From assembly GCA_020073385.1 (NCBI GenBank), contig JAIQFH010000024.1:1-64000 (forward strand): a stretch of DNA of 64,000 nt. Reading direction: 5' to 3'. The notes below the pieces were generated by a model. It saw nothing but the letters and a program-made list of their open reading frames with translations, was not told the DNA's origin and searched no databases. Positions within the stretch are counted from its first letter, which is position 1; each line of letters opens with the position of its first letter. This document shows, piece after piece, positions 1,292 to 12,542 of this stretch. Made by a program: the position numbers and the translations under genes. The DNA comes from Terriglobia bacterium (GTDB lineage Bacteria; Acidobacteriota; Terriglobia; Terriglobales; Acidobacteriaceae).

Positions 1292-2263
1292 TTAAGCGGG
1301 TCCCCTGGAACACAGCGCCGCACCTCCGGCAATTCCTGCATCAGCGCCGTAGTGCGCCATCAGCAGCGGAATTTCTGAGGCACGCGGATTTACACACCAG
1401 TCCGGAAGTCCACGTTTGATCTCCTCAAAGAAACTTCTCAGCATTGCAGCCACTCCGCCGCCCACCACGATGACGTCGGGATCGAGCAGGTCAACAATGT
1501 TCCCCAACCAGATCGTCAGGAGGTGGACCGTATCTTCAAGGACCTCGCGTGCTACCGGATCGCCGGACTCGAATGCCTCGCGTACGTGTTGGCTAGTAAT
1601 CGAGTTGGCGTCTCCCTTGACCAAATCAAGCAGCGCCTTTGCTCGCGAAGAATCGGCGACGACCTTGTCCCGCGCCCGAGCGCCGATCGCTGGGCCGGCA
1701 GCAAGGATCTCGATGCAGCCACGCTTGCCGCATCCGCAGACCGGCCCTCGATAGTCAATGCTCACGTGACCGCCCTCTCCTGCCGATCCCGTTTTTCCGT
1801 GATAGATTGCGCCATCGAAGACGATCCCGGTTCCAATCCCGGTGCCAATCGTTGCGTAGAAGACGTAATGAAAACCCTGAGCCGCTCCCCAGAGAGTCTC
1901 AGCCAATGCTGCGGCGTTTGCATCATTGTCGATCTTCACCGGCACGCTGTATTTCGTGCGAACTTTCTCGGCTAATGGAAAATTCCGCCAGCATGGAAGG
2001 TTCGGAGGATTGAGAACGACGCCGGTCTTCGGATCGAGCGGCCCCGGCGCACAGATGCCAATACCCTCGATGTCCACCGCGGAAGCGGACAACATCGAAT
2101 CGATCGCGCAGATTACGGCATCGAAAGCGGCCTCCGGCGTTCCGTTGGCAACCATCGGCGTCCGCCCCTGAGCGAGAATCTTGCCAGAACGGTCGACAAT
2201 TCCTACAGCGATCTTCGTTCCTCCGATGTCAACTCCCAGTACAGCTTTGGCGCCTGCAGTCAT
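1292..2263 (-). CDS. ROK-family sugar kinase (glucokinase-like)
   Basis: This 323-residue protein is a ROK kinase, a cytoplasmic enzyme that phosphorylates a hexose with ATP. The phosphate-binding motif DIGGTK lies at residues 12-17. The catalytic region DNDANAAALAE follows at about 112-122, and the ROK zinc site is His166 with the cysteines of the C-x-C-G-x-x-G-C-x-E motif (Cys176, Cys178, Cys183). Its start codon overlaps the stop of the GH38 gene by 4 nt (ATGA), so the two are translationally coupled. The natural reading is phosphorylation of sugar released by the upstream mannosidase, but sugar specificity (glucose, mannose, N-acetylmannosamine) cannot be read from sequence. It could also be a fructokinase or ManNAc kinase; the lack of an N-terminal helix-turn-helix argues against a ROK repressor. 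Confidence 0.92.
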   Translation of the reverse strand: MTAGAKAVLGVDIGGTKIAVGIVDRSGKILAQGRTPMVANGTPEAAFDAVICAIDSMLSASAVDIEGIGICAPGPLDPKTGVVLNPPNLPCWRNFPLAEKVRTKYSVPVKIDNDANAAALAETLWGAAQGFHYVFYATIGTGIGTGIVFDGAIYHGKTGSAGEGGHVSIDYRGPVCGCGKRGCIEILAAGPAIGARARDKVVADSSRAKALLDLVKGDANSITSQHVREAFESGDPVAREVLEDTVHLLTIWLGNIVDLLDPDVIVVGGGVAAMLRSFFEEIKRGLPDWCVNPRASEIPLLMAHYGADAGIAGGAALCSRGPA

Positions 2264-5200
2264 TGCCGATCCCCTGCCGCTTCGCTCATGCCAGAGAATC
2301 GCACTTCAATTGTCTTAATCTCGTAGGGTTTCGTGGGCACTTTCACCTCACCGTTGGAAACAGGAAGGTTGCCCAACGGCCTCTCCATCAAATCCGTATC
2401 CGAAGCCGACGCTGCGCCCGTAGGAAGCTGAATTGTCACATCGCCTTGCTTTCCAGCCCACTCATAGAATCGGACGATCAGTGCGTTGTCGTCTTCAGCC
2501 TTCTTGACCGCAGTAACAATGACATTGTCCGACTTCGCTTGCACAAAAGAGTATTTCCCGGGAAGTTTCCCCTCGTGCCTTCCCGAAGGGAGTGCGATCA
2601 ATTTGTAATTCAGTTCGTAGCCGCAGCGAATGGTCAGCGCATTCTTCCATCCTCCTGCATGCGGATACAAGGAATAGGTGAACTCGTGATGTCCCTCATC
2701 GGCGTGCGGATCAGGCCACTCGGGCGACCGCAACAAAGATAGCCGCAGGACATTGCCCTTTGCGTCGTACCCGTACTTGGAATCGTTCAACAGGCTGAGT
2801 CCGTGCTTGCCATCGGAGATGTCGGCCCAGCGCTGGGCTGGAACCTCAAACTGCGCTTGCTCGGCGGGAGTATTGCGCGTGGTGGGGCGCTCCACGGAAC
2901 CGAATGGAATCTCGTAGGTCGCCTTGTCGCTATGTGCGCTCACTGGGAATGCAACCTTCAGCAGGATGTGTTTCTCGTGCCACTCTGCATCCATCTTCAC
3001 GTCAACCCGCGGCACGCCAGCATACAAAATGATGTCGCGCACAAACGTCGAATTCTGAAAATGATTCTTCACGCGAATGATCGATCGCAGCGGACCATTC
3101 TCCACGAGTTTGACCTCGTCGGCTTTAACCAGATCCCAGTGCTGCTTCTCGAAATCTGCGTCGATATTCCACGCGTCCCATTGCTTGGGTTTATCAACGA
3201 AAGTCTGCAGAAGATTGCCGCACGTGGCGTTCCTCGGGCCGCCCGTATCCGTCTCGGCAGGAGCCAGCGCTTCCGTCCCGCTCTTCTTGTCGAATAAGCT
3301 CGTCATGCAGCCGGTCTGCGGATCAATCTTCACTCGGATGAACTCATTTTCCAGCGAATCTGCCGAGGCTTTCAGAACTGAGTGCTCCGGAACAGCCGAC
3401 GCCGCCCCACGAGCAAAATAAGTCTGATATCCAAGGGGCGGAGTATTCGAGAGCACTAAGAAGCGCGCGCGATGCGTTTCCCCATCAATCGATAACAACT
3501 GCGCTTCTGCAGCCTTGCCATTGGAGTCGACCACCTCGATCTGGCGAGCCGGAGCCGGCAGTTGAACCTCCACCTCGCTTACTTCAGTTCGAGGCCACGA
3601 GAGTGAGTTGAACAACAGCACCGGCGCGCCTTCTCGCTCTGTGTTTACATGGGCCGCAATCTCCCGCAGGGATGCAAACGTGACGTCATTCGCAGCCCGG
3701 TCCACATTCTCCATGTTGCGCTTGGCATCCAAATAGTTCACGGCAATGCCCGATCCCGGCATGATGTCGTGGAAGTGCTCAAACAGCAGGTTCTTCCATG
3801 TCTGCGTCATTAGCTCTTGTGGGTAGGGCCGTCCATACAGCGAGGCAATCGACGCAAACTTCTCGGCGTTCAACACATTCTCTTCCGAGCGCCGAATCCT
3901 CCGCTTGGTCTCCGCCTGTGTCGTGAAGACGCCTCGGTGATACTGAAAGTACAGTTCCCCATCCCAGGTCGGGACCTGCATCGAGGGCAACTTCTTCTCC
4001 ATGTCGCTGAAGAACTCGCTGGCAAAACTGAACTCCAGCCTGGGGAAAACTGTATCGGGTGATCGCAGTTGTTCGGCATGATCGAGCATCACCCGAGTAG
4101 GCCCGCCACCGTGATCGCCAACACCATACAGGTGCATCATCTCGGGCTTGTCGGGGATCTTCGGGCCGTAGATCGAAGGCATCCATTGCGCCACCTGACT
4201 CCCCATCGGTTCCGCATCGATCCCATCCGCATAATCGTGCGGAAAATACGTCAGCAGGCGGCTGCCATCCGGCGCTTGCCACCAGAAGAATTTGTAGGGG
4301 AACGTCGTGAATTCGTGCGCCCACATCAGCTTCTGGGTCACGAAATAGTCCATGCCTGATCGCTTATAGATCTGCGGCAGCTGATAGTTGTAACCGAACG
4401 AATCCGGATTCCATCCGATCTTCACGTCCACGCCAAAGTTTTTCTGGAAATATCGTTTGCCCACCAGGATTTGTCGAACCAGCGACTCACCGTCGGGCAT
4501 ATTCAGGTCCGGTTCAACCCACATCCCGCCAATGATCTCCCATCGACCCTCTTTCACGCGCTGCTCGATCTGATGGTAGATATCCGGATACTTCTCCTGC
4601 ATCCATTCATAGGTCCGGGCCGAGGACATCGTGAACTTGAAGTCGGGATACTCGCGCATCAAATCGAGCACGCTATTGAATGTATTGCGAACCACTTCGA
4701 CGGTTTCGGTCCATGGCCAGAGCCATGCCATGTCAATGTGAGAGTTGCCGACGGCGCGAATCGTGAATTGCTGCAGCCACGGTTTCAGGACTTCCAGTTT
4801 GGCGTGTGCCGATTTGAGTGACGCATCAAACGCCGCTTGATCACCCTTATCGAGCGGAGAGAAATCAATCGCCTTGACTGCCGCATCCAGTTGGCGTTCG
4901 CGTTCTGCCTTTCCATCCTCATAGGCCGCGATAATCGGACGAGCAGCCAGCAGGTCCAGCCGCAGCCGGGCGGGATCCGGACGTGATTTCGGAGCATCGA
5001 TTGTGAGTTCGCTACGGAAGAACTCCGACTGCACCGTATCTCCCCCAACCACGCGGGCAGCCACCAGAAACTTCTGCCCCGGTTGCGCACTCTCGGTCAA
5101 CAGTACCGGCAAGATGTTGTCATCATCGCCCCGGTAAAGAACAGCGCCGTTGGAGAAGACCGTGATCATCAGGCTGCTCGCGCTCCCGAAACGCAAGTCC

Positions 5201-5541
5201 AGCTTAATGCTCGCCCCCTGCGTGGCATAACCGTTGATCTTCACGGGAATCTGAATCCAGCTCCGGAAGACGCGAGTCCCAGTCCAATGTGCCTCATTCG
5301 CGTTTTGCCCCCCTGGACCGGACATATTTTTCACGATCCAGGCACCCCAGTCCGTGTCGCTCAGGCCGGGATCTTCCGGATGAGGGATGTCATCATGAAA
5401 GCGCCACTCAGATTCTGGTTGATGAGTCAGCGAGTTGAGCCGATCGAGAGTCGCCTTGTAAGGATCCGCAGCATTGTTCTGGCACAAGCCGGCGATAGTG
5501 AAGACCAGCGGAAAGAGAACTAAAACAGCGCGACGCATCAT
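2260..5541 (-). CDS. Glycoside hydrolase family 38 alpha-mannosidase, secreted
   Basis: This large enzyme (about 1,093 residues from the chosen start) hydrolyses alpha-mannosides with retention. An N-terminal signal peptide MMRRAVLVLFPLVFTIAG is followed by a linker. The GH38 catalytic domain shows the zinc-binding HID motif (Asp about 270) and the nucleophile aspartate in WNPDSFG (about 380), as well as HEFTTFPY. The C-terminal half is the beta-rich middle and C-terminal GH38 region. The frame is open 23 codons further upstream, but the signal peptide fits the start given here, where an AAAGG-like site lies about 13 nt away. It is the first gene of the operon with the ROK kinase and the Asp-box protein, and it is divergent from the sulfite reductase leader. 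A substrate such as N-glycan or plant or fungal mannan is inference. Confidence 0.93.
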   Translation of the reverse strand: MMRRAVLVLFPLVFTIAGLCQNNAADPYKATLDRLNSLTHQPESEWRFHDDIPHPEDPGLSDTDWGAWIVKNMSGPGGQNANEAHWTGTRVFRSWIQIPVKINGYATQGASIKLDLRFGSASSLMITVFSNGAVLYRGDDDNILPVLLTESAQPGQKFLVAARVVGGDTVQSEFFRSELTIDAPKSRPDPARLRLDLLAARPIIAAYEDGKAERERQLDAAVKAIDFSPLDKGDQAAFDASLKSAHAKLEVLKPWLQQFTIRAVGNSHIDMAWLWPWTETVEVVRNTFNSVLDLMREYPDFKFTMSSARTYEWMQEKYPDIYHQIEQRVKEGRWEIIGGMWVEPDLNMPDGESLVRQILVGKRYFQKNFGVDVKIGWNPDSFGYNYQLPQIYKRSGMDYFVTQKLMWAHEFTTFPYKFFWWQAPDGSRLLTYFPHDYADGIDAEPMGSQVAQWMPSIYGPKIPDKPEMMHLYGVGDHGGGPTRVMLDHAEQLRSPDTVFPRLEFSFASEFFSDMEKKLPSMQVPTWDGELYFQYHRGVFTTQAETKRRIRRSEENVLNAEKFASIASLYGRPYPQELMTQTWKNLLFEHFHDIMPGSGIAVNYLDAKRNMENVDRAANDVTFASLREIAAHVNTEREGAPVLLFNSLSWPRTEVSEVEVQLPAPARQIEVVDSNGKAAEAQLLSIDGETHRARFLVLSNTPPLGYQTYFARGAASAVPEHSVLKASADSLENEFIRVKIDPQTGCMTSLFDKKSGTEALAPAETDTGGPRNATCGNLLQTFVDKPKQWDAWNIDADFEKQHWDLVKADEVKLVENGPLRSIIRVKNHFQNSTFVRDIILYAGVPRVDVKMDAEWHEKHILLKVAFPVSAHSDKATYEIPFGSVERPTTRNTPAEQAQFEVPAQRWADISDGKHGLSLLNDSKYGYDAKGNVLRLSLLRSPEWPDPHADEGHHEFTYSLYPHAGGWKNALTIRCGYELNYKLIALPSGRHEGKLPGKYSFVQAKSDNVIVTAVKKAEDDNALIVRFYEWAGKQGDVTIQLPTGAASASDTDLMERPLGNLPVSNGEVKVPTKPYEIKTIEVRFSGMSEAAGDRQ

Positions 5542-5705
5542 AATAAGGACGCTACCTTTCGAGTGGAATGAAGGTGAACACAAGCTGCCGAAGCAAAGGA
5601 AGATTATCACTGAACCGTTTGCATGGAAGCTAAGTTGTTGATTTTACAGTGTCGCGAGCTGGTGTGCCTGGGAATGCAAAAATTCTGATTCCTTTCATCG
5701 AAATT

Positions 5706-5733
5706 TTGAGTCTAAGCCGGAGAACAGTAATAT
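5706..5733 (+). promoter_or_regulatory. Candidate sigma-70 promoter of the cysteine leader
   Basis: A TTGAGT -35-like box at 5706-5711 and a TAATAT -10-like box at 5728-5733 are separated by 16 bp. Transcription would start near 5740, about 30 nt before the leader-peptide ATG and about 210 nt before the sulfite reductase start. This is a visual match only; the -10 box is good and the -35 box is fair. Confidence 0.5.
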
Positions 5734-5771
5734 TGACGGGCGCCAGCCGGGCCCGTAAAATCGAAACTCGA

Positions 5772-5867
5772 ATGTCAGATAGCTCCAATCTTCGCGCAAC
5801 GTGCTGCTGCATCTGTTGTTGTTGTTGTGGATGCGTGCGCTCTGGCGCGGGGAGGCTGCTGACTTAA
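5772..5867 (+). CDS. Polycysteine leader peptide (31 residues) of the sulfite reductase operon
   Basis: A short open frame upstream of sulfite reductase encodes 31 residues, nine of them cysteine: residues 11-13, 15-19 and 21, from TGC and TGT codons between 5802 and 5834. The run reads ATCCCICCCCCGCV. Such a density of a rare amino acid just before the cysteine-biosynthesis operon is the signature of a ribosome-mediated attenuator. A ribosome short of Cys-tRNA would stall in the run. The stop codon lies 30 nt before the terminator hairpin, and the antiterminator strand lies inside codons 24-27. No clear Shine-Dalgarno site precedes the ATG; the frame also stays open to the left, so the exact start is uncertain. 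The peptide itself probably has no function. Polycysteine leaders are known in mycobacteria; I know of none described in Acidobacteriota. Confidence 0.85.
   Translation: MSDSSNLRATCCCICCCCCGCVRSGAGRLLT
5841..5852 (+). promoter_or_regulatory. Antiterminator strand of the cysteine attenuator
   Basis: TCTGGCGCGGGG can pair with CCCACCGCCAGA (5900-5911), the 5' arm of the terminator, giving 10 of 12 Watson-Crick pairs. It begins 6 nt after the last leader Cys codon and ends 12 nt before the leader stop codon. A ribosome stalled early in the Cys run leaves it free, and a ribosome on the stop codon would cover it. This matches classical attenuation geometry; the pairing was done by eye. Confidence 0.72.
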
Positions 5868-5897
5868 GAATATCTTCTTAAAGTAAAAGCACTCATC

Positions 5898-5933
5898 AAC
5901 CCACCGCCAGACGGATCTGGCGGTGGGTTTTTT
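5898..5933 (+). terminator. Intrinsic terminator in the 5' leader of sulfite reductase (attenuator)
   Basis: AACCCACCGCCAGA (5898-5911) and TCTGGCGGTGGGTT (5916-5929) form a perfect 14-bp GC-rich stem with a 4-nt loop. The 3' arm runs into six T residues (5928-5933). The hairpin ends only 17 nt before the sulfite reductase ATG, so it must be conditional or the operon would be silent from this promoter. Almost the same stem occurs upstream of aspartate kinase on the other strand. Confidence 0.88.
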
Positions 5934-5950
5934 ATTGCCCGAAAATAGCA

Positions 5951-7675
5951 ATGACCAACACAACAAACACGAAGAAAGAGACGGCAGCCCAGCGGGCGGA
6001 GCGACTGAAGCGGGCCAAGAATCCGTGGGACGGGTTGGACGAGATCCGCCGCTTTGCGCGTGAGGGATTCGATTCTATCCCGCCCGAGTGGATCGGCACC
6101 TACTTCCGCTGGTGGGGCGTTTACACCCAGGGCGACGGTGCTGGCGTCACCGGCGGCCAGGGAGGCGTGGGGCGCGCGTTGCAGCGTTTCATGGTGCGCA
6201 TCCGGATTCCCAACGGCATCATGAGCTCTCATCAGTTGCGCGCCATTGCAGACCTCACCCGCCGCTACGCTAACGGAATCGCCGACCTCACGGTTCGTCA
6301 GAATATTCAACTGCACTGGGTCACGATTGAGTCCTTGCCGGAAGTTCTTGAAGGCCTGTGGCGCGTGGGACTCAACACCACGGGTGCTTGCGGAGATGTC
6401 GTACGCAACGTGACGGGTTGCCCAGTTGCAGGCGTCGATGCTGACGAAATTATCGATGCGTCCCCTCTGGTGCTCGAGACATCGCAACTGCTGGCGGGAA
6501 ACTCGAAGTTCTACAACCTGCCGCGGAAGTTTAAGATCTCGATTGCCGGATGCCACTCCTGGTGCTCCTATCCTGAAATCAATGATATTGGCCTGACCGC
6601 GATTTCCCGCACGGCCGGCGGGAAGCGTGAAGTTGGATTTTCCCTGCGTGTAGCCGGTGGCCTTTCGGCGGAACCATATCTAGGTGCACGGCTCGATGCA
6701 TTTGTTCAGCAGGGTCAGGTCGTGCCCGTTATCAAGTGTATTGCCGAACTTTTCCGCGATTCCGAGGTTCTCCGCGAGCACCGCGAACGCGCTCGACTGA
6801 AATTCCTCTTCCTTCGTCATGGATGGACGGCTGAGCAATTTCTCGATGAATTGCATCAGCGCCTCGGCTTCCATCTCGATCCCGCAGCCGCAGAGCATCC
6901 TCCAGACGATGTTTACCGCGACCACGTTGGCATTCACCCACAAAAACAGCCCGGTCTTTCCTACGTCGGAGCTGTAGTGCTGCGGGGACGAATTACAGCC
7001 GACCAGATGCACTCGGCCGCCGATGTGGCCGAGCGCTATGCAAGCGGCGAACTCCGTGCCACCACTATGCAGAACTTGCTGGTCGTCAATGTCCCCACGA
7101 TCAATGCCGACGCATTGGCCAAAGAGCTTGACGCGATTGGATTCCAGGTGAGTGGGTCAGCCTTCGCGCGCGGTGCCGTAGCTTGCAGCGGCACGGAATT
7201 CTGCAAGCTGGCCATCACAGAAACCAAGAGCTTCTCGCGTTGGCTGGTCGAGGAAATGGAAGAGCGCCTCCCCGGTTTCGATCAGCATCTGAAGCTGCAC
7301 GTCACAGGCTGCCCCAACAGTTGCGGACAGCACTGGATCGCCGACGTCGGGATCGAGGGCAAGAAGATCAAAGTCGACGGCGGCCTGGCCGATGCTTACT
7401 ACTTCTGCGTCGGCGGCGCCCTCGGTCTTCATCAGTCGACGGCGCGCCCAGTGGGCTATCGCTGCCTCGCCACTGAAGTGCCCGATGCGCTGGAGCGTTT
7501 GCTCGGGCGATATCTGGCTGACCGCAACCCCGGGGAGAATCTACGCAGATTCTTTTCCCGTCACAGCGACTCTGAGTTGCGCGAGTTTTTAGCGGGCGAA
7601 AGTGTGCCCGCAGTAGTACGCGATCTGCCCTCTCCCCAAAATTTGGTTCACCTGGCAGGAGGAATCGGTGACTAG
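5951..7675 (+). CDS. sir: Siroheme/[4Fe-4S] sulfite reductase (nitrite/sulfite reductase family)
   Basis: This 574-residue cytoplasmic enzyme reduces sulfite to sulfide with six electrons, probably from ferredoxin. The siroheme-[4Fe-4S] ligands are visible as CSGTEFC (Cys412, Cys418) and TGCPNSC (Cys454, Cys458). Two ferredoxin-like half-domains (about residues 60-130 and 330-400) flank siroheme-binding segments. Length fits the monomeric ferredoxin-dependent type. Family members reduce nitrite or sulfite. Sulfite is preferred here because siroheme synthesis genes and cysH follow in one overlapping operon and because the leader senses cysteine. No Shine-Dalgarno site is visible between the leader terminator and the ATG. 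Expression is predicted to depend on antitermination under cysteine shortage. Confidence 0.9.
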   Translation: MTNTTNTKKETAAQRAERLKRAKNPWDGLDEIRRFAREGFDSIPPEWIGTYFRWWGVYTQGDGAGVTGGQGGVGRALQRFMVRIRIPNGIMSSHQLRAIADLTRRYANGIADLTVRQNIQLHWVTIESLPEVLEGLWRVGLNTTGACGDVVRNVTGCPVAGVDADEIIDASPLVLETSQLLAGNSKFYNLPRKFKISIAGCHSWCSYPEINDIGLTAISRTAGGKREVGFSLRVAGGLSAEPYLGARLDAFVQQGQVVPVIKCIAELFRDSEVLREHRERARLKFLFLRHGWTAEQFLDELHQRLGFHLDPAAAEHPPDDVYRDHVGIHPQKQPGLSYVGAVVLRGRITADQMHSAADVAERYASGELRATTMQNLLVVNVPTINADALAKELDAIGFQVSGSAFARGAVACSGTEFCKLAITETKSFSRWLVEEMEERLPGFDQHLKLHVTGCPNSCGQHWIADVGIEGKKIKVDGGLADAYYFCVGGALGLHQSTARPVGYRCLATEVPDALERLLGRYLADRNPGENLRRFFSRHSDSELREFLAGESVPAVVRDLPSPQNLVHLAGGIGD

Positions 7676-8300
7676 CTTATTTCCAATGTTCATGAAACTG
7701 GAAGGGAAGCAGTGCCTGGTCGTCGGGGCCGGAAAGGTCGGCGAACCGAAGATCGCTGGCTTGCTTGAAACGGGAGCGCGCATTCGGGTCGTCGCTCTCG
7801 ATGCCAGCCCTGCCGTTCGCGAATGGGCGCGCTCGGGAAGGATCGAACTCGAACTGCGCGCCTTTACCAATGACGATTTGCACGGAGCGTTTCTGGTCGT
7901 CGTCGCCACTGCTTCGCGCTCGTTGAATGAACGCGTCTATCACGAGGCGCAGAGACTGAGCATCCTCTGCAATGTAGTCGATGTTCCGGATCTCTGCGAC
8001 TTCTTCTATCCGTCAATTGTTCGCCGCGGCGATTTGCAGATTGCCGTTTCGACCGCTGGGAAGAGTCCCTCCCTGGCGCAGAAGATCAGGCAACAGCTCG
8101 AAAAGCAGTTCGGGCCAGCCTATGCCGCATGGGTGGCCGAACTGGGCGAAACCAGGCAACTCATCCTGGCCAGTGATCTCGACAAAGAGCGCAAGCTCGA
8201 CCTCCTTCATTCGCTGGCGAGCAGGGAGGCCGTCGAAGCGGCTCTGGCCGAGAACCGCGAATTGGCAGTCGCACTCGCTGAGCATGGGGAGAAAGCATGA
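7668..8300 (+). CDS. Precorrin-2 dehydrogenase / sirohydrochlorin ferrochelatase (CysG N-terminal type)
   Basis: This 210-residue protein matches the N-terminal half of CysG (Met8p/SirC type), which oxidises precorrin-2 with NAD and inserts iron to give siroheme. The Rossmann segment begins near residue 12 (CLVVGAGKVGEPK), and the typical segment NVVDVPDLCDFFYPSIVRRG follows near residue 105. The GTG start lies inside the sulfite reductase gene with an 8-nt overlap, and the stop overlaps the next ATG, so translation is coupled. It works with the following methyltransferase to supply siroheme to the reductase just upstream. In many bacteria these activities are fused in one CysG protein; here they are separate genes. 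Confidence 0.9.
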   Translation: MTSLFPMFMKLEGKQCLVVGAGKVGEPKIAGLLETGARIRVVALDASPAVREWARSGRIELELRAFTNDDLHGAFLVVVATASRSLNERVYHEAQRLSILCNVVDVPDLCDFFYPSIVRRGDLQIAVSTAGKSPSLAQKIRQQLEKQFGPAYAAWVAELGETRQLILASDLDKERKLDLLHSLASREAVEAALAENRELAVALAEHGEKA

Positions 8301-9109
8301 AGGGAAAAGTTTCTCTAGTTGGTGCAGGACCCGGCGATCCAGAGTTGCTCACGGTGAAAGCTCTGCGATTGCTTAGGACAGCGGACGCTGTCTTGTATGA
8401 CGAACTGGTCTCGGCTGAGATCCTGAAGCTCATTTCCCCAGCGGCCCAGTTGCATAACGTCGGCAAGAGATGCGGAACGAAAAAGATCCAGCAGGAAGAG
8501 ATCAACTTCTTGATGATCGCACTCGCGGACTCAGGTTTGAATGTAGTTCGATTGAAGTCCGGAGACCCCATGATCTTCGGCCGCGCCGGCGAGGAGATCG
8601 AGGCTCTTCGCAAAGCGAACATTGATTGCGAGATTGTCCCGGGTGTGACGTCGGCGCTGGGAGCCGCGGCATCGGCGCAGATACCGCTGACGCATCGGCG
8701 CGAGTCGTCAGCCGTGGTCTTCCTCACAGCGCATCAAGCTTCGAACAGCGAGGCTGCTGACTGGAGCAAGCTGGCCGGAAGCGGCGCTACTCTCGTCATC
8801 TACATGCCCGGCCACAATTACGCGGACATGTCGGCAAGATTGAAAGCCGCGGGCCTGGCAAGCGATACACCCTGCGCTATCGTTTCTCGCGCGACGACGC
8901 CTGACCAGGAGACTTTCCGTACGAGCGTCGGGAAACTGCAGACCTCTCCAACGTTGCCCGCTCCCACTCTGCTTGTAGTCGGTGATGTTGTCCGACACGC
9001 CGTGGACGAGAAGTTCGAATTTGCTTCGAGCGGCAGCGAGATTTCTATCCCTGCTGAATTGGTTTCGGGTTTCCGTGCAGAGTCCATTCAAGAGGAGCCA
9101 GTCGCGTGA
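8297..9109 (+). CDS. cobA: Uroporphyrinogen-III C-methyltransferase (SUMT)
   Basis: This 270-residue enzyme adds two SAM-derived methyl groups to uroporphyrinogen III to give precorrin-2, the first committed step to siroheme. The N-terminal SAM-binding motif VGAGPGDPELLT is at about residues 6-17. The family segments VLYDELVS, RLKSGDPMIFGRAGEE and PGVTSALGAAA follow in the expected order. Length is normal for the stand-alone enzyme. The start overlaps the preceding gene by 4 nt (ATGA), and the stop overlaps the GTG of cysH by 4 nt. The last 20 or so residues extend past the usual fold. In this operon its product most likely feeds siroheme rather than cobalamin. Confidence 0.94.
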   Translation: MKGKVSLVGAGPGDPELLTVKALRLLRTADAVLYDELVSAEILKLISPAAQLHNVGKRCGTKKIQQEEINFLMIALADSGLNVVRLKSGDPMIFGRAGEEIEALRKANIDCEIVPGVTSALGAAASAQIPLTHRRESSAVVFLTAHQASNSEAADWSKLAGSGATLVIYMPGHNYADMSARLKAAGLASDTPCAIVSRATTPDQETFRTSVGKLQTSPTLPAPTLLVVGDVVRHAVDEKFEFASSGSEISIPAELVSGFRAESIQEEPVA

Positions 9110-9879
9110 AAGATCTCATTCAGCCCTCCACCCCAATCGACGGCCAACTTCAGGTCGGCAAAGTGCAGGCCGTCGCCGAAACCTGGTCTCCGCAGCACGT
9201 CCTAACTTGGGCCTTTCAAACCTTTGGCAAAAGCGTGGCCATCTCGTCGGCATTCGGCGCCGAAGGAATGGTGCTGATCGACATGGCGTCTCGTATCAGC
9301 AGGGAGTTCCGTTTGTTCACCATCGATACGGAATTTCTTTTTCCTGAAACCTACAATTTGATGGACAGGATCGAAGAGAAATACGGGATCACGATCGAGA
9401 GGGTGTACTCCGCGCTCTCGCCGGAAGAGCAACAGCGGGTTCATGGCGAAGCTCTATGGAGCCGCAACCCTGATCTATGCTGCAATCTGCGCAAGGTCGA
9501 ACCGCTGCGCCGGAAACTGGGCGAACTGAGCGCGTGGATCACGAGCATCCGTCGAGATCAGACGTCAGTACGATCGGCCGCGAGACGGATCGAGTGGGAT
9601 GCGAAGTTCGGTTTGGTGAAAGTCAACCCCATTGTGGACTGGACGTCGAAGCAAGTGTGGCGCTACATCCATGACCATGATGTCCCGTACAACGCGCTTC
9701 ACGATCAGGACTACCCCAGCATCGGCTGCACCCATTGCACCCGCTCTGTCCAGCCCGGCGAAGACCCGCGCGCCGGCCGTTGGCCCGGCTTTAACAAGAC
9801 TGAGTGCGGGCTACACATTATCGAGCCGGTTCCTGCATCGTCACAGGTGCAAGCACCGGCCGCAGAAGGCGGCGATTAA
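9106..9879 (+). CDS. cysH: Assimilatory adenylylsulfate (APS) reductase, [4Fe-4S] type
   Basis: This 257-residue cytoplasmic enzyme reduces activated sulfate to sulfite using thioredoxin. The cysteine pairs CC (Cys125-Cys126) and CxxC (Cys208, Cys211) that bind a [4Fe-4S] cluster are present. These mark the APS-using branch rather than the PAPS-only enzyme, which lacks them. The catalytic KTECGLH motif puts the nucleophile at Cys234. The GTG start overlaps the stop of the methyltransferase gene. Its product is the substrate of the sulfite reductase two genes upstream, so the operon covers APS to sulfide plus the cofactor. ATP sulfurylase is not in the window. The gene ends 9 nt from the end of the convergent aspartate kinase gene, with no terminator visible between them. 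Confidence 0.93.
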   Translation: MKDLIQPSTPIDGQLQVGKVQAVAETWSPQHVLTWAFQTFGKSVAISSAFGAEGMVLIDMASRISREFRLFTIDTEFLFPETYNLMDRIEEKYGITIERVYSALSPEEQQRVHGEALWSRNPDLCCNLRKVEPLRRKLGELSAWITSIRRDQTSVRSAARRIEWDAKFGLVKVNPIVDWTSKQVWRYIHDHDVPYNALHDQDYPSIGCTHCTRSVQPGEDPRAGRWPGFNKTECGLHIIEPVPASSQVQAPAAEGGD

Positions 9880-9888
9880 CAGCGGCTT

Positions 9889-11334
9889 CTATCCGGCCTC
9901 ACAGAATGCGCTGGAGATTCCTCCCCAGTCGCGCGCCGGCTCAAGCTTGGGAAAGAAGACGCTGTGCAGGCGGCGGACCGATTCCTCCGCCCTCGACTCA
10001 TCCACTAGGAACGATAACGTCCGTTCCGATGCCCCCTGGCAAAGGACACGCACATCCATGTCAGAAACAGTCGCGAACAGTTGGCTCGCCACTTCTGGCT
10101 GACGGCGGATATTCTCACCGACAAGGCAAACGAGCGCCTTATGATTTTCCCAACACACGTCGGCGACTTGCCGCAGATCTTCGACAATTTTTGGCAGAGC
10201 GACGTTGGAGCCCACCAACAGTGAGATTCGGTCGATCGAAGTTCCCATCACGTCCACCGCACAGGTGTGTTGCTCAAGGACTCCAAACACAGTATTCAGC
10301 AAAGCAGCATCGACCCCACGCCGAGACTGGATTTCAAGCGAGACGACATTCCGTTTCGCCGTAATCGCGCTCACCCGGTTCCCCGTGCTCGCACGCGCCG
10401 TAATTTCAGTTCCATGGCCCTCCGGGTGCCGCGAGTTCAACACATAAACCGGAATATTCTCGCGCATCGCGGGCGCAAGGGTTGCCGGATGCAGCACCTT
10501 GGCTCCAAAATGGGCCAGGTCAGCGGCTTCGTCGAAGCTGAGCTTGCGAATGACGCGAGCGTCGGAACAGACCTTCGGGTCCGTCGTCATGACTCCGTCA
10601 ACATCCGTCCAGATTTCGACTCGCGATGCACCAACCGCCGCTCCGACAATAGCGGCGCTGAAGTCCGAGCCCCCGCGCCCCAGCGTGGTGGGAACTCCAT
10701 CGATGGTCGAGGCAATAAACCCACCCAGAACCGGGACGCTTCCCGACTGCAGCAGAGGATTTAATGCATCTCGAAGGCGCTGGTTGGTTACATCCCAAAG
10801 TGGACTTGCCTGACCGTGGCGCGCGTCGGTGACGACGCAATTACGGGCATCGACATGCGCAGCCTGCAGTCCGGCTTCACAGAGCGCCCAACTGACCAGC
10901 CTGCTGGAGAAGCATTCCCCAAAGCTCAAAAGCCGATCCTGTGCCTTAAGGTCAAAGTGGCGGGACGTTTCCAATTCGTGCAGGAGCGATTCCAATGCCT
11001 GTAGTTCGCCGCGCAGTTCTCGGTCCAGCGAGCCATGCGCCGAGGCGCTCAGAAGGGAATCAGCCAGGTCTTCGTGGCGGACGTAAATGTTTCGAACGAT
11101 CGCCAGGGCCGATCCCAGATGTCCTTTGGCAGCAGCGTTCCCGGCCTCCAGTAACTGATCGGTAACTTTTGCCAACGCGCTGATAATTAACACCGGCTGC
11201 GCGCCAAGCCTGCTCTCGACGATACCGACGAGTCGTCGAATGGCGGCTGCGTCTTCGACCGACGTCCCGCCGAACTTCATCACCACCACATCCTCGCCAC
11301 GCTCAAATCTGCTTTGTCGCTGTGAACCGCTCAT
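9889..11334 (-). CDS. lysC: Aspartate kinase
   Basis: This 481-residue enzyme phosphorylates aspartate, the first step towards lysine, threonine, methionine and isoleucine. The N-terminal kinase motif KFGGTS is at residues 20-25, and GRGGSDFSAAIVG and the segment around EIWTDVDGVMTTDP follow. The C-terminal 170 or so residues carry paired ACT regulatory domains. There is no homoserine dehydrogenase domain, so it is monofunctional. The leader encodes a Thr/Ile-rich peptide followed by a terminator, which argues for feedback by threonine and isoleucine supply. It converges on cysH. The close presence of sulfur genes fits a role in methionine and cysteine metabolism, but the enzyme serves the whole aspartate family. 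Confidence 0.94.
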   Translation of the reverse strand: MSGSQRQSRFERGEDVVVMKFGGTSVEDAAAIRRLVGIVESRLGAQPVLIISALAKVTDQLLEAGNAAAKGHLGSALAIVRNIYVRHEDLADSLLSASAHGSLDRELRGELQALESLLHELETSRHFDLKAQDRLLSFGECFSSRLVSWALCEAGLQAAHVDARNCVVTDARHGQASPLWDVTNQRLRDALNPLLQSGSVPVLGGFIASTIDGVPTTLGRGGSDFSAAIVGAAVGASRVEIWTDVDGVMTTDPKVCSDARVIRKLSFDEAADLAHFGAKVLHPATLAPAMRENIPVYVLNSRHPEGHGTEITARASTGNRVSAITAKRNVVSLEIQSRRGVDAALLNTVFGVLEQHTCAVDVMGTSIDRISLLVGSNVALPKIVEDLRQVADVCWENHKALVCLVGENIRRQPEVASQLFATVSDMDVRVLCQGASERTLSFLVDESRAEESVRRLHSVFFPKLEPARDWGGISSAFCEAG

Positions 11335-11374
11335 GTTCTTTCAGCTCCGTTCTGCGAAATCGCCCAAAAAGCAA

Positions 11375-11409
11375 AAACCCACCGCCAGATCGCTTCTGGC
11401 GGTGGGTTT
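11375..11409 (-). terminator. Intrinsic terminator in the 5' leader of aspartate kinase (attenuator)
   Basis: Read on the minus strand, AAACCCACCGCCAGA and TCTGGCGGTGGGTTT form a perfect 15-bp stem with a 5-nt loop, followed by TTTTTGCTTTTT. The T-rich side faces the aspartate kinase gene, so it terminates transcripts entering that gene. The stem is nearly identical to the one before sulfite reductase. It ends about 40 nt before the gene start, so it is probably conditional. Confidence 0.85.
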
Positions 11410-11440
11410 CGGTGATCTTGCTTAAGATTGCTTTACTTCA

Positions 11441-11536
11441 TCATCCGTTCCCATCCTCCAGAAGACACGTAATTCGTGTCGACATGCCTGTGCCTGTCGA
11501 TGTAATTCGCTTCGCCTTCTGGATGAGGGTGCTCAT
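11441..11536 (-). CDS. Thr/Ile-rich leader peptide (31 residues) of aspartate kinase
   Basis: This minus-strand frame of 31 codons contains the segment RITSTGTGMSTRIT. In all it holds six Thr codons (residues 3, 12, 14, 16, 20, 23), three Ile codons (5, 11, 22) and two Met codons. A leader enriched in the end products of the aspartate pathway directly before aspartate kinase parallels the Thr/Ile leader of the enterobacterial thr operon. Its stop codon lies 31 nt before the terminator hairpin, nearly the same distance as in the cysteine leader. The antiterminator strand lies in codons 25-29. A clear ribosome-binding site is not visible. Composition alone would be suggestive; geometry and shared RNA structure make the case stronger. 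Confidence 0.75.
   Translation of the reverse strand: MSTLIQKAKRITSTGTGMSTRITCLLEDGNG
11450..11462 (-). promoter_or_regulatory. Antiterminator strand of the aspartate kinase attenuator
   Basis: On the minus strand TCTGGAGGATGGG can pair with CCCACCGCCAGA of the terminator 5' arm, with one mismatch and one bulged A, giving 11 pairs. It starts 5-6 nt after the last Thr codon of the leader and ends 6 nt before the leader stop codon, the same layout as in the cysteine leader. Pairing was judged by eye. Confidence 0.65.
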
Positions 11537-11639
11537 GAAATCAGGAACTGCAAAATGCACAAAAAGGATATCGGACGAATGCTGTCCAGGTTAAATTCAA
11601 AATTATGATGTTACGAATCGAAATTTCAGGTTTCGGCTG

Positions 11640-12542
11640 CTACGCATCCACCTTCTTCATGTGGGTCGCAAACTGCCGTAAAAGGGCCACGAACGCAGTC
11701 GACGCCACTGAAAGCGTGCGGTCGCGACGGTAAGCCAGGCCCAGTTCACGATAGAGTTCCGCATCTTCAAGGTCGATTAACTTAACCCGTCCTGCATCCA
11801 CTTCATCGCGAGCAAACGACGCGCTGATGAGTGACACACCCAGGTCGGCCGCCACAAAGCTCTTGATCATCCCAATACTCGGCAACTCCATCCGCACCTG
11901 CAGTTCAGAGTTATGCGGACGAAAGAGTTTGTCCAGGAGCCTGCGCGTATGACCGGTCTTCGGAAACAGCAGCGGATGTTTGACGATCTCGCTAACCGGC
12001 ACGACTTTGTGCTTGGCCAGCGGATTCTTCGGGCTCACCATCAACATCAGCTTGTCGCGAAAAATCGGCTGGATTTTCAGGCTGGGAGACTGAATCGGCA
12101 GCGTAAGAATGCCCACTTCCACGGCACCGTTCTCCAGTTTCTCCACGATCTTGTAGCTGAAATTTCGATAGATGCTGATCTGCACCGGGGGATACCGCCT
12201 GCAGTATTCGCCAAAGACCTCCGGCAGCACATACAAACAAGTGGCCTCGTTCGCCCCGACGCGCAGAGTGCCGCGGGGCGTGGTGCTGTGGTCCGCAACC
12301 GCTGTGAGCGACTCATCCCGCAGATTCTTCAGGCGCTCGGCATATTCGTAGAAAATCTGTCCGGCGGGCGTCAGTTTCACGGTTTTGCCGGAGCGGTCCA
12401 GTAGGCGGTCACCGTACTCCTGCTCAAGTTGGCGGATCTGCGCGCTGACCGCCGATTGTGAGCGAAAGACCTTTTCCCCCGCACGGGAAAAACTGCCCTG
12501 TCTGGCGACTTCCAGGAACGTAATGAGTTGATCAAAGTCCAT
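11640..12542 (-). CDS. LysR-type transcriptional regulator
   Basis: This 300-residue protein has the LysR layout. The N-terminal winged helix-turn-helix covers about residues 1-62 (FSRAGEKVFRSQSAVSAQIRQLE is the recognition region), and the C-terminal periplasmic-binding-like effector domain spans about 90-295. It lies upstream of and on the same strand as aspartate kinase, whose attenuator fills the gap, and it diverges from gltB. By position it could control gltBD, aspartate kinase or the nearby sulfur genes. Members of this subgroup include sulfur (CysB/CysL-like) and carbon-fixation regulators, so the target cannot be fixed from sequence. The 250-bp gap to gltB holds AT-rich repeats but no operator I can assign. 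Confidence 0.88.
   Translation of the reverse strand: MDFDQLITFLEVARQGSFSRAGEKVFRSQSAVSAQIRQLEQEYGDRLLDRSGKTVKLTPAGQIFYEYAERLKNLRDESLTAVADHSTTPRGTLRVGANEATCLYVLPEVFGEYCRRYPPVQISIYRNFSYKIVEKLENGAVEVGILTLPIQSPSLKIQPIFRDKLMLMVSPKNPLAKHKVVPVSEIVKHPLLFPKTGHTRRLLDKLFRPHNSELQVRMELPSIGMIKSFVAADLGVSLISASFARDEVDAGRVKLIDLEDAELYRELGLAYRRDRTLSVASTAFVALLRQFATHMKKVDA

Follow-up and report, generated by a model that had tools for sequence, protein, structure and literature searches.

The sulfite reductase operon and its upstream region

The window is the whole stretch of 64,000 nucleotides that was analysed, and its own genome has a size of 8.2 Mb. It contains a NirA-type sulfite reductase gene, followed by genes for a siroheme synthase N-terminal-domain protein, a uroporphyrinogen-III C-methyltransferase and CysH (Table 1). 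These four genes are an apparent operon because their reading frames overlap. No NCBIfam family scores above its cut-off for the sulfite reductase. Its closest solved relative is NirA (1zj8, E 2.4e-90), which was deposited as a probable nitrite reductase. The siroheme and cysH genes in the operon point to an assimilatory sulfite reductase role. The gene at 2260-5610 (minus strand) is divergent from the sulfite reductase gene and the leader region sits between the two, so the terminator at 5898-5929 serves no upstream operon. Across the whole window, Rfam 15 at the gathering score reports two tRNAs and an SRP RNA and no T-box or riboswitch.

Table 1. Positions of the genes and of the observed or predicted leader elements in the window
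Feature	Position	Strand	Description
Candidate transcription factor site	5687..5712	+	Conserved element GATTC-N16-GAGTC; centre about 68 nt before the predicted start
Sigma-70-like promoter (predicted)	5733..5761	+	TTGACG-17-TAAAAT; predicted start near 5767-5769, 5' UTR about 3-5 nt
Leader ORF	5772..5867	+	MSDSSNLRATCCCICCCCCGCVRSGAGRLLT, 31 codons, nine Cys; ATG 5772, TAA 5867
Strand 1 (protector)	5774..5797	+	Pairs with 5845-5863 in the minimum-energy fold; fixed-register support in relatives weak
Sensor	5802..5834	+	Cys codons 11-13, 15-19 and 21 in the leader reading frame
Strand 2	5841..5857	+	Pairs with strand 3 (antiterminator) or partly with strand 1 (protector); from folding and pairing tests
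Small hairpin	5862..5884	+	Lies over the stop codon; apical part of the antiterminator; from folding
Strand 3	5888..5911	+	AGCACUC (5888-5894) and terminator 5' arm CCCACCGCCAGA (5900-5911); from folding and pairing
Intrinsic terminator (3:4)	5898..5933	+	14 bp; stem 5898-5929, loop of 4, U run 5928-5933
NirA-type sulfite reductase	5951..7675	+	Pfam NIR_SIR and NIR_SIR_ferr; function inferred from operon company
Siroheme synthase N-terminal-domain protein (precorrin-2 dehydrogenase type)	7668..8300	+	TIGR01470, 150 bits (cut-off 62)
Uroporphyrinogen-III C-methyltransferase	8297..9109	+	TIGR01469, 285 bits (cut-off 185)
cysH, phosphoadenylyl-sulfate reductase	9106..9879	+	NF002537, 271 bits (cut-off 154)

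The region upstream of the sulfite reductase gene contains a short, Cys-rich ORF and an intrinsic terminator. The preliminary description gave the ORF as a 31-codon leader with nine cysteines, and the reading frame contains exactly these. It ends 30 nt before the 14-bp terminator, and the T run ends 17 nt before the ATG at 5951, also as described. The terminator had been called a perfect 14-bp stem with six T residues. All 14 pairs and all six T are present, but two of the T are already part of the stem; the structure can be counted either as 14 bp with 4 T or as 12 bp with 6 T. By chance, 0.6 terminator-like sites are expected in such a stretch, so the case for the terminator is its strength and its conservation and not that it is the only one.

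When the 420 bases upstream of the gene are shuffled with dinucleotides preserved, none of 60 shuffles gives a Cys cluster as strong as the observed one (7 Cys in 8 residues). The DNA pattern for CCCxCC has 30 matches in the whole genome, 23 of which are in a (TGT)n microsatellite, one in the window and six elsewhere. Four of these six lie opposite open frames of 391-1005 codons and two lie in a CTGTTG-repeat stretch about 200 bases from an apparent tRNA gene (recognised by eye); none of the six looks like a leader. No second copy of the Cys leader was found in the genome. On contig C45, some 28 units of TGT form an almost pure (TGT)n tract (near 2344-2427) that encodes a Cys run in a 33-codon open frame; this tract looks like a microsatellite.

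The predicted promoter is the only sigma-70-like promoter in 5600-6100 and matches the consensus at 10 of 12 positions, where shuffles give 0.2 promoters. Its -10 box ends 10 nt before the leader ATG, which by the predicted start makes the leader near-leaderless. The same kind of promoter, with a spacer of 17-18 nt and 9-12 nt to the start codon, is present at 28 of 32 loci in the genus. In one of the genus loci (L004), the stretch with the -10 box and the leader start seems to be deleted, and an ATG stands directly before the Cys run. In 22 of 24 leaders from other genera of the family, 6-8 nt separate the predicted -10 box from the start codon, so most of the leaders could be leaderless; this count is a lead and not a measurement, as the script takes the best-scoring start and has no shuffled control.

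The candidate transcription factor site lies upstream of the promoter. The pattern GATTC-N5-ATC-N2-AATTTTGA, with at most one mismatch, occurs in the genome only at this site and at 11597-11619 (minus strand). The second copy is at the aspartokinase promoter, and the element is thus common to the promoters of two leaders (see below). At two mismatches, there is one further genomic match and the reversed control pattern has two, so matches at this level mean nothing. The genome search is also partly circular, since the pattern was drawn up from the two sites that it returns. The better evidence for the element is its conservation at the cys promoter. Its consensus is found with three or fewer mismatches of 18 at 28 of 31 genus loci (L014 was left out), and the reversed pattern is never below 6. 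A gene for a LysR-type regulator (11640-12542) adjoins the second copy. Binding of this regulator to the element is conjecture.

A separate leader, MSTLIQKAKRITSTGTGMSTRITCLLEDGNG, which contains six Thr and three Ile, precedes the aspartokinase gene (9889-11334, minus strand). The region at 11376-11560 (minus strand), with this Thr/Ile-rich leader and a terminator, is likely a second attenuator. A UUCUGG strand in it can pair with CCAGAA of the terminator, and the upstream AUCCAGAAG can pair with the same UUCUGG strand; both 1:2 and 2:3 pairings can be drawn. A Thr leader of the same kind is present in all four close relatives with a readable upstream region (L165, L166, L167 and L185). The search for a second Cys leader in the genome led to the aspartokinase terminator instead. 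The terminators at 5898-5929 and 11373-11409 are nearly identical (94% over 36 bases), and the leader peptides differ. Apart from the aspartokinase terminator, no genome match at E 1 or better covers the cys terminator.

Alternative RNA folds and ribosome geometry

Attenuators of the trp, thr and his type consist of strands 1-2-3-4, with the regulatory codons between strands 1 and 2 and a terminator before the first gene. In the window, the elements follow one another in the same order as in trp: strand 1, the sensor, strand 2, the stop codon (5865-5867), strand 3 and the terminator stem.

The RNA from 5767 to 5937 folds with a z of -6.3, and 0 of 200 shuffles are as low. In the fold of the full RNA, codons 1-9 pair with codons 25-31, and the stop-codon hairpin and the terminator form downstream (-71.4 kcal/mol). 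When the RNA is free past the Cys codons and the 3' arm of the terminator is not yet made, the 2:3 fold is found (-29.1). In this fold, 5841-5847 pairs with 5905-5911, 5849-5857 pairs with 5888-5894 and 5900-5902, and the stop-codon hairpin is the tip. Hiding the RNA as far as 5873 or 5878 leaves the terminator. All three helices of a trp-like attenuator (1:2, 2:3 and 3:4) can therefore be drawn. The pairing that had been noted between the post-Cys strand UCUGGCGCGGGG (5841-5852) and the terminator 5' arm (5900-5911) is present, with 10 of 12 pairs. The 1:2 protector, which spans the ORF and is seen by folding, had been missed. By energy alone, the full-length RNA prefers the terminator, so a switch must be kinetic.

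To place a ribosome on the leader, its footprint was assumed to run from -12 to +15 relative to the P-site. If one of the first eight Cys codons (11-13 and 15-19) is in the A-site, this footprint extends no further than 5838, upstream of the start of strand 2 at 5841. At Cys 21, it reaches 5844. The proposal that a ribosome stalled in the Cys run would leave strand 2 free is thus borne out, under this footprint, for the first eight Cys codons. The companion proposal, that a ribosome at the stop codon would cover strand 2, applies to the second half of the strand only. Such a ribosome covers approximately 5850-5877 and leaves the UCUGGCG core uncovered.

Conservation of the leader, the terminator and the pairings

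The search covered 61 genomes and gave matches at E 0.001 or better in 55, some of which have distant homologues only. Upstream regions were taken at 33 genus loci; one (L005) is cut off, and 32 are readable. A search for homologous leaders in related Terriglobia had been suggested as a check, and a Cys-bearing ORF and a terminator are present at all 32 of these loci. Most of the leaders (29 of 32) have at least five Cys in eight residues. At 30 of 32 loci, 0 of 60 shuffles contain as good a Cys ORF; the exceptions are L024 (two shuffles) and L017 (three). The Cys run is reduced to three Cys in eight residues in L017 and L024 and to four in L023, and all three keep the 2:3 pairing. Conservation in the genus falls on three parts of the ORF: codons 6-8, which belong to strand 1; the majority of the Cys codons; and, ahead of the stop codon, G-x-G-x-L-L-T, which belongs to strand 2. 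Gaps in the ORF are multiples of three in 31 of the 32 aligned leaders. The exception, L014, is cut by a contig end and frameshifted. L004 has no start codon at the usual place.

A strict DNA pattern, made up of the Cys run and the sequence that follows it, is found in 25 of 45 genus genomes, once in each. All 25 sites are directly before the sulfite reductase gene (20 by coordinates and five by tblastn). The window's own genome has no match to this pattern because Gly stands in place of Ala. The loci described here were found through the sulfite reductase, so their gene context is given by construction; the pattern search is an independent test of the context, for the genus only.

Leaders were located with a finder that takes the best Cys cluster, with at least 3 Cys in 8 residues, in an ORF of 45 codons or fewer. 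The finder can pick a wrong frame, and its frame looks wrong in L250 and L259. The 184 loci examined overlap; 169 share no 60-mer, and 101 of these have a leader. L048 was dropped as the same place as L122, and L005, L037, L212 and L261 were dropped as too short. In other genera of the family, a Cys-rich short ORF is present at 24 of 27 sulfite reductase sites, and the finder reports no Cys-rich leader at the other three (L086, L089 and L093). At most 3 of 60 shuffles are as good for 18 of these 24 ORFs, and the finder reports a terminator behind all 24. In the same genera, none of 13 upstream regions of paralogues, which are 32-35% identical to the window protein, contains a leader. The next family of the order has eight readable orthologues; each is preceded by a short ORF that contains CC or CCC, and seven of the eight leaders have at least three Cys in eight residues. 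Elsewhere in the class and phylum, 26 further sites were read in other families, many next to distant homologues, and the finder reports leaders at three (L048, L103 and L107).

Among the best 80 of the matches listed, 78 named loci are readable, with taxon names taken from record titles. A leader is present at 42 of the 47 loci titled Acidobacteria or a group of it. Cultured relatives that carry such a leader are Edaphobacter modestus, Terracidiphilus gabretensis, Silvibacterium bohemicum and Granulicella sp. S156. The finder reports none at the other five, nor at one more, the Blastocatellia locus L268. Within the same best 80, a leader is found at 1 of 7 loci from Actinomycetota, 2 of 4 from Gemmatimonadota (one of them convincing, L258), 1 of 2 from Verrucomicrobiota and 1 of the 4 remaining named loci, where L268 is counted. 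Misbinning is possible for the records from Betaproteobacteria and Opitutia that have such leaders. In the actinobacterial homologues (L230, L267 and L269-L273), there is one Cys-rich ORF, at -283 in L272, and no terminator by the finder.

By the finder, the Rokubacteria and Methylomirabilota have a leader at 0 of 14 homologues among the best 80 of the matches listed (L204, L210, L211, L213-L215, L218, L219, L223, L225, L228, L238, L254 and L262), which suggests gene transfer without the switch. Their sulfite reductases are 62-70% identical to that of the window. In several cases, a small ORF with a CPRCK or CKRCK-like motif lies upstream of the gene.

Of the 184 loci, 113 have such an ORF, and the finder reports a terminator behind it at 103 of these. 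Seven of the other ten have one by eye (L036, L206, L221, L231, L235, L240 and L243). In L034, L042 and L272, none is found by the finder or by eye. L034 and L042 are sister-family leaders, and L034 contains six consecutive Cys codons; these two loci perhaps have another output device. In the genus, the terminator pairs covary. Four pairs are changed on both sides, a result reached by 2 of 500 shuffles.

The antiterminator core in the genus consists of seven pairs, UCUGGCG:CGCCAGA. Six of them can form in 30-32 of the 32 sequences and the outermost in 19 of 32. With so little variation in this core, its covariation does not rise above shuffles (63 of 500 reach the score), and covariation of the antiterminator in 13 family leaders is likewise not above shuffles (160 of 500). 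Support for the pairing therefore comes from other clades, where different sequences pair. For example, in a group of other genera, CUUUGC:GCAAAG is nested in GUGCGC:GCCCAC; 93% of cells are paired, and slid versions reach at most 60% (L088 aligned poorly and was left out of this alignment, A2). In L221 and similar loci, CUCUGGC:GCCAGAG occurs with GAACUU:AAGUUC (by eye). For the protector, one fixed 1:2 register gives 70% of cells paired in the genus, with a covariation reached by 288 of 500 shuffles; subclades seem to use different 1:2 registers. The RNAalifold consensus contains the terminator and weak helices in the ORF and does not show the alternative fold.

The duplex between strands 2 and 3 was assessed in one representative of each of 53 clusters, where the post-Cys segment was paired with the stretch ahead of and within the terminator 5' arm and compared to dinucleotide shuffles of itself; clusters below the identity cut-off may still share ancestry. 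The pairing has p < 0.05 in 19 of the 53, with a median p of 0.083 and a Fisher p of 1.7e-17. The other 34 clusters are not individually significant, and L035, L088, L233, L244 and L250 clearly are not. At 51 of these loci (L250 and L259 were left out), leaders from other loci were also put in place of the native one. The native leader ranks better overall (median rank 0.20, KS p 1.2e-8), and in 45 of 51 the post-Cys segment gives stronger pairing than a control segment from further upstream. In a fold-based test, the mean energy z is -2.1 for 32 genus loci, -2.3 for 24 family loci and -2.3 for seven other loci. The share of the terminator 5' arm in upstream pairing is 0.50 in the family leaders and 0.41 in shuffles, a small excess. 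Taken across clades, the recurrent predicted 2:3 pairing is collective evidence for an antiterminator.

A probable cysteine-sensing attenuator and its alternatives

The leader is very probably a ribosome-mediated transcription attenuator that senses cysteinyl-tRNA. Several parts of this class of regulator are present in the window. A short leader rich in the end product (nine Cys of 31 codons) precedes a sulfate-assimilation operon, and an intrinsic terminator lies between the leader ORF and the first gene. The regulatory codons are placed, under the assumed -12 to +15 footprint, as in such attenuators. Folding and the multi-clade duplex test predict an antiterminator that is exclusive with the terminator. 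A cysteine-sensing transcription attenuator agrees with the order and spacing of the parts, with the conservation that keeps the reading frame, with the gene context and with the alternative pairing that recurs between clades. The trp- or thr-like design recognised in the preliminary description is the best supported reading, with a predicted 1:2 pairing now added to it.

In the proposed mechanism, transcription would start a few bases before the ATG, and a ribosome would begin translation of the leader almost at the 5' end of the RNA. When charged tRNA-Cys is plentiful, the ribosome would pass the Cys codons, reach the stop codon and cover the second half of strand 2. The 3:4 terminator would then form, and the operon of sulfite reductase, siroheme and cysH genes would be off. 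When charged tRNA-Cys is short, the ribosome would stall in the Cys run and displace strand 1, which would leave strand 2 free. Free strand 2 would pair with strand 3, the terminator would be blocked and the operon would be transcribed. If no ribosome is present at all, strand 1 would hold strand 2 and the terminator would form.

Four other explanations were considered, and all of them explain less than the attenuator. The first is translational control of the sulfite reductase by the polycysteine leader, as in mycobacteria, with a terminator that is incidental or sets a fixed low level. The leader type, the near-leaderless start and the regulated NirA homologue match the mycobacterial case, and the two sister-family leaders without a detected terminator are in keeping with it. 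Translational control alone is nevertheless improbable, given that nearly all leaders have a terminator between the ORF and the gene, that the sequence of the terminator changes between clades while its place is kept, and that in the window the terminator 5' arm takes part in the alternative pairing.

The second explanation is that a Cys-rich peptide, nascent or free, binds metal or sulfide or senses redox state and either stalls the ribosome or acts in trans. A cluster of Cys could bind metal, and the genus also conserves residues other than those of the Cys run. However, the number and spacing of the Cys vary widely between clades, with no fixed spacing, and the non-Cys codons that the genus conserves lie in RNA strands 1 and 2. 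By inspection, conservation of these codons ends with the genus and its closest relatives. A role for the peptide itself is accordingly somewhat less probable still than translational control.

The third explanation, a metabolite riboswitch, a T-box or a Rho-dependent device with no role for the short ORF, would account for a long structured leader before a sulfur operon. It has a very low probability, as no Rfam family reaches its gathering threshold at the leader, and the conserved unit is an ORF with frame-keeping indels, whereas the RNA outside the ORF differs between clades. Finally, a chance (TGT)n microsatellite beside an ordinary terminator, suggested by TGT five times in a row at 5814-5828 and by the (TGT)n tract elsewhere in the genome, is refuted by the conservation of mixed TGC/TGT codons over the family and beyond at a fixed place before one gene and has a negligible probability.

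Polycysteine leaders are known in mycobacteria, as the preliminary description had stated. The passages available from PMC1262725 (Seliverstov 2005) predict Cys leaders in Mycobacterium without conserved terminator hairpins, and those from PMC4633059 (Shell 2015) describe leaderless Cys-rich ORFs before cysA2, Rv0485 and nirA. Canestrari 2020 is cited in excerpts of PMC9031893 and PMC13236596 for cysteine-dependent attenuation of translation. Like the mycobacterial ORFs in these excerpts, the leader in the window has a cluster of Cys codons before cysteine genes, and the nirA product is the closest solved relative of the sulfite reductase. The start codon is at the 5' end of the RNA in the mycobacterial ORFs, and the 5' end is predicted to adjoin it in the window. 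Unlike the mycobacterial case as these sources present it, with translational control and no conserved terminator, the window has an intrinsic terminator and a predicted competing antiterminator.

A predicted Cys attenuator with a terminator, uORFC-8-2, occurs before cysS in Rhodobacterales (PMC8632094). In the passages that describe it, it resembles the leader in the window in its Cys codons in a short ORF and its intrinsic terminator, and readthrough on stalling is proposed for both. The same passages place uORFC-8-2 in Alphaproteobacteria, with two tandem Cys codons before a cysteinyl-tRNA synthetase gene, whereas the leader in the window precedes a sulfite reductase operon in Acidobacteriota. 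A near-leaderless start is predicted in the window and is not described in the passages on uORFC-8-2. According to excerpts of PMC8079986, leuL2 and ilvL of Streptomyces lividans encode leaderless leader peptides with Rho-independent terminators, and leaderless genes are predicted at 9.7-19.4% in three Acidobacteria genomes in the part of PMC3160421 that treats them.

The leader in the window shares the strand order, codon placement and terminator of trp-, thr- and his-type attenuators. It differs from them in that Cys would be sensed, in its phylum, Acidobacteriota, and in being known here from sequence. A cysteine switch of this kind seems to be undescribed in Acidobacteriota, and similar switches are known for other amino acids. 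Among the matches listed from the main texts of open-licence PMC papers, no paper on a cysteine attenuator in Acidobacteriota was found. The earlier statement that none has been reported in this phylum agrees with this literature, but Cys attenuators with terminators are known, as the excerpts on uORFC-8-2 show. A terminator survey from 2010 (PMC2965389) may list the window site without a function; in its available passages, almost no predicted elements of this class in Acidobacteriota have associated functions.

It is possible, at somewhat less than even chances, that NirA-type polycysteine leaders are one recurrent scheme in at least two phyla, in which a Cys sensor at or near the 5' end of the RNA is kept and the output device is replaced. 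The output would be a terminator with an antiterminator of new sequence in the acidobacterial clades, perhaps with none in a few, and translational control in mycobacteria. The Cys-rich leader on the homologous mycobacterial gene, as described in the excerpts above, makes common ancestry and convergence testable against each other. The many natural variants, with diverged sensors and terminators, would be useful for the study of how antiterminators evolve. If the proposed switch operates, a class of elements would gain a function in the Acidobacteriota, abundant soil bacteria with few worked-out regulators, and sulfur assimilation in these bacteria would be set by cysteinyl-tRNA through the ribosome.
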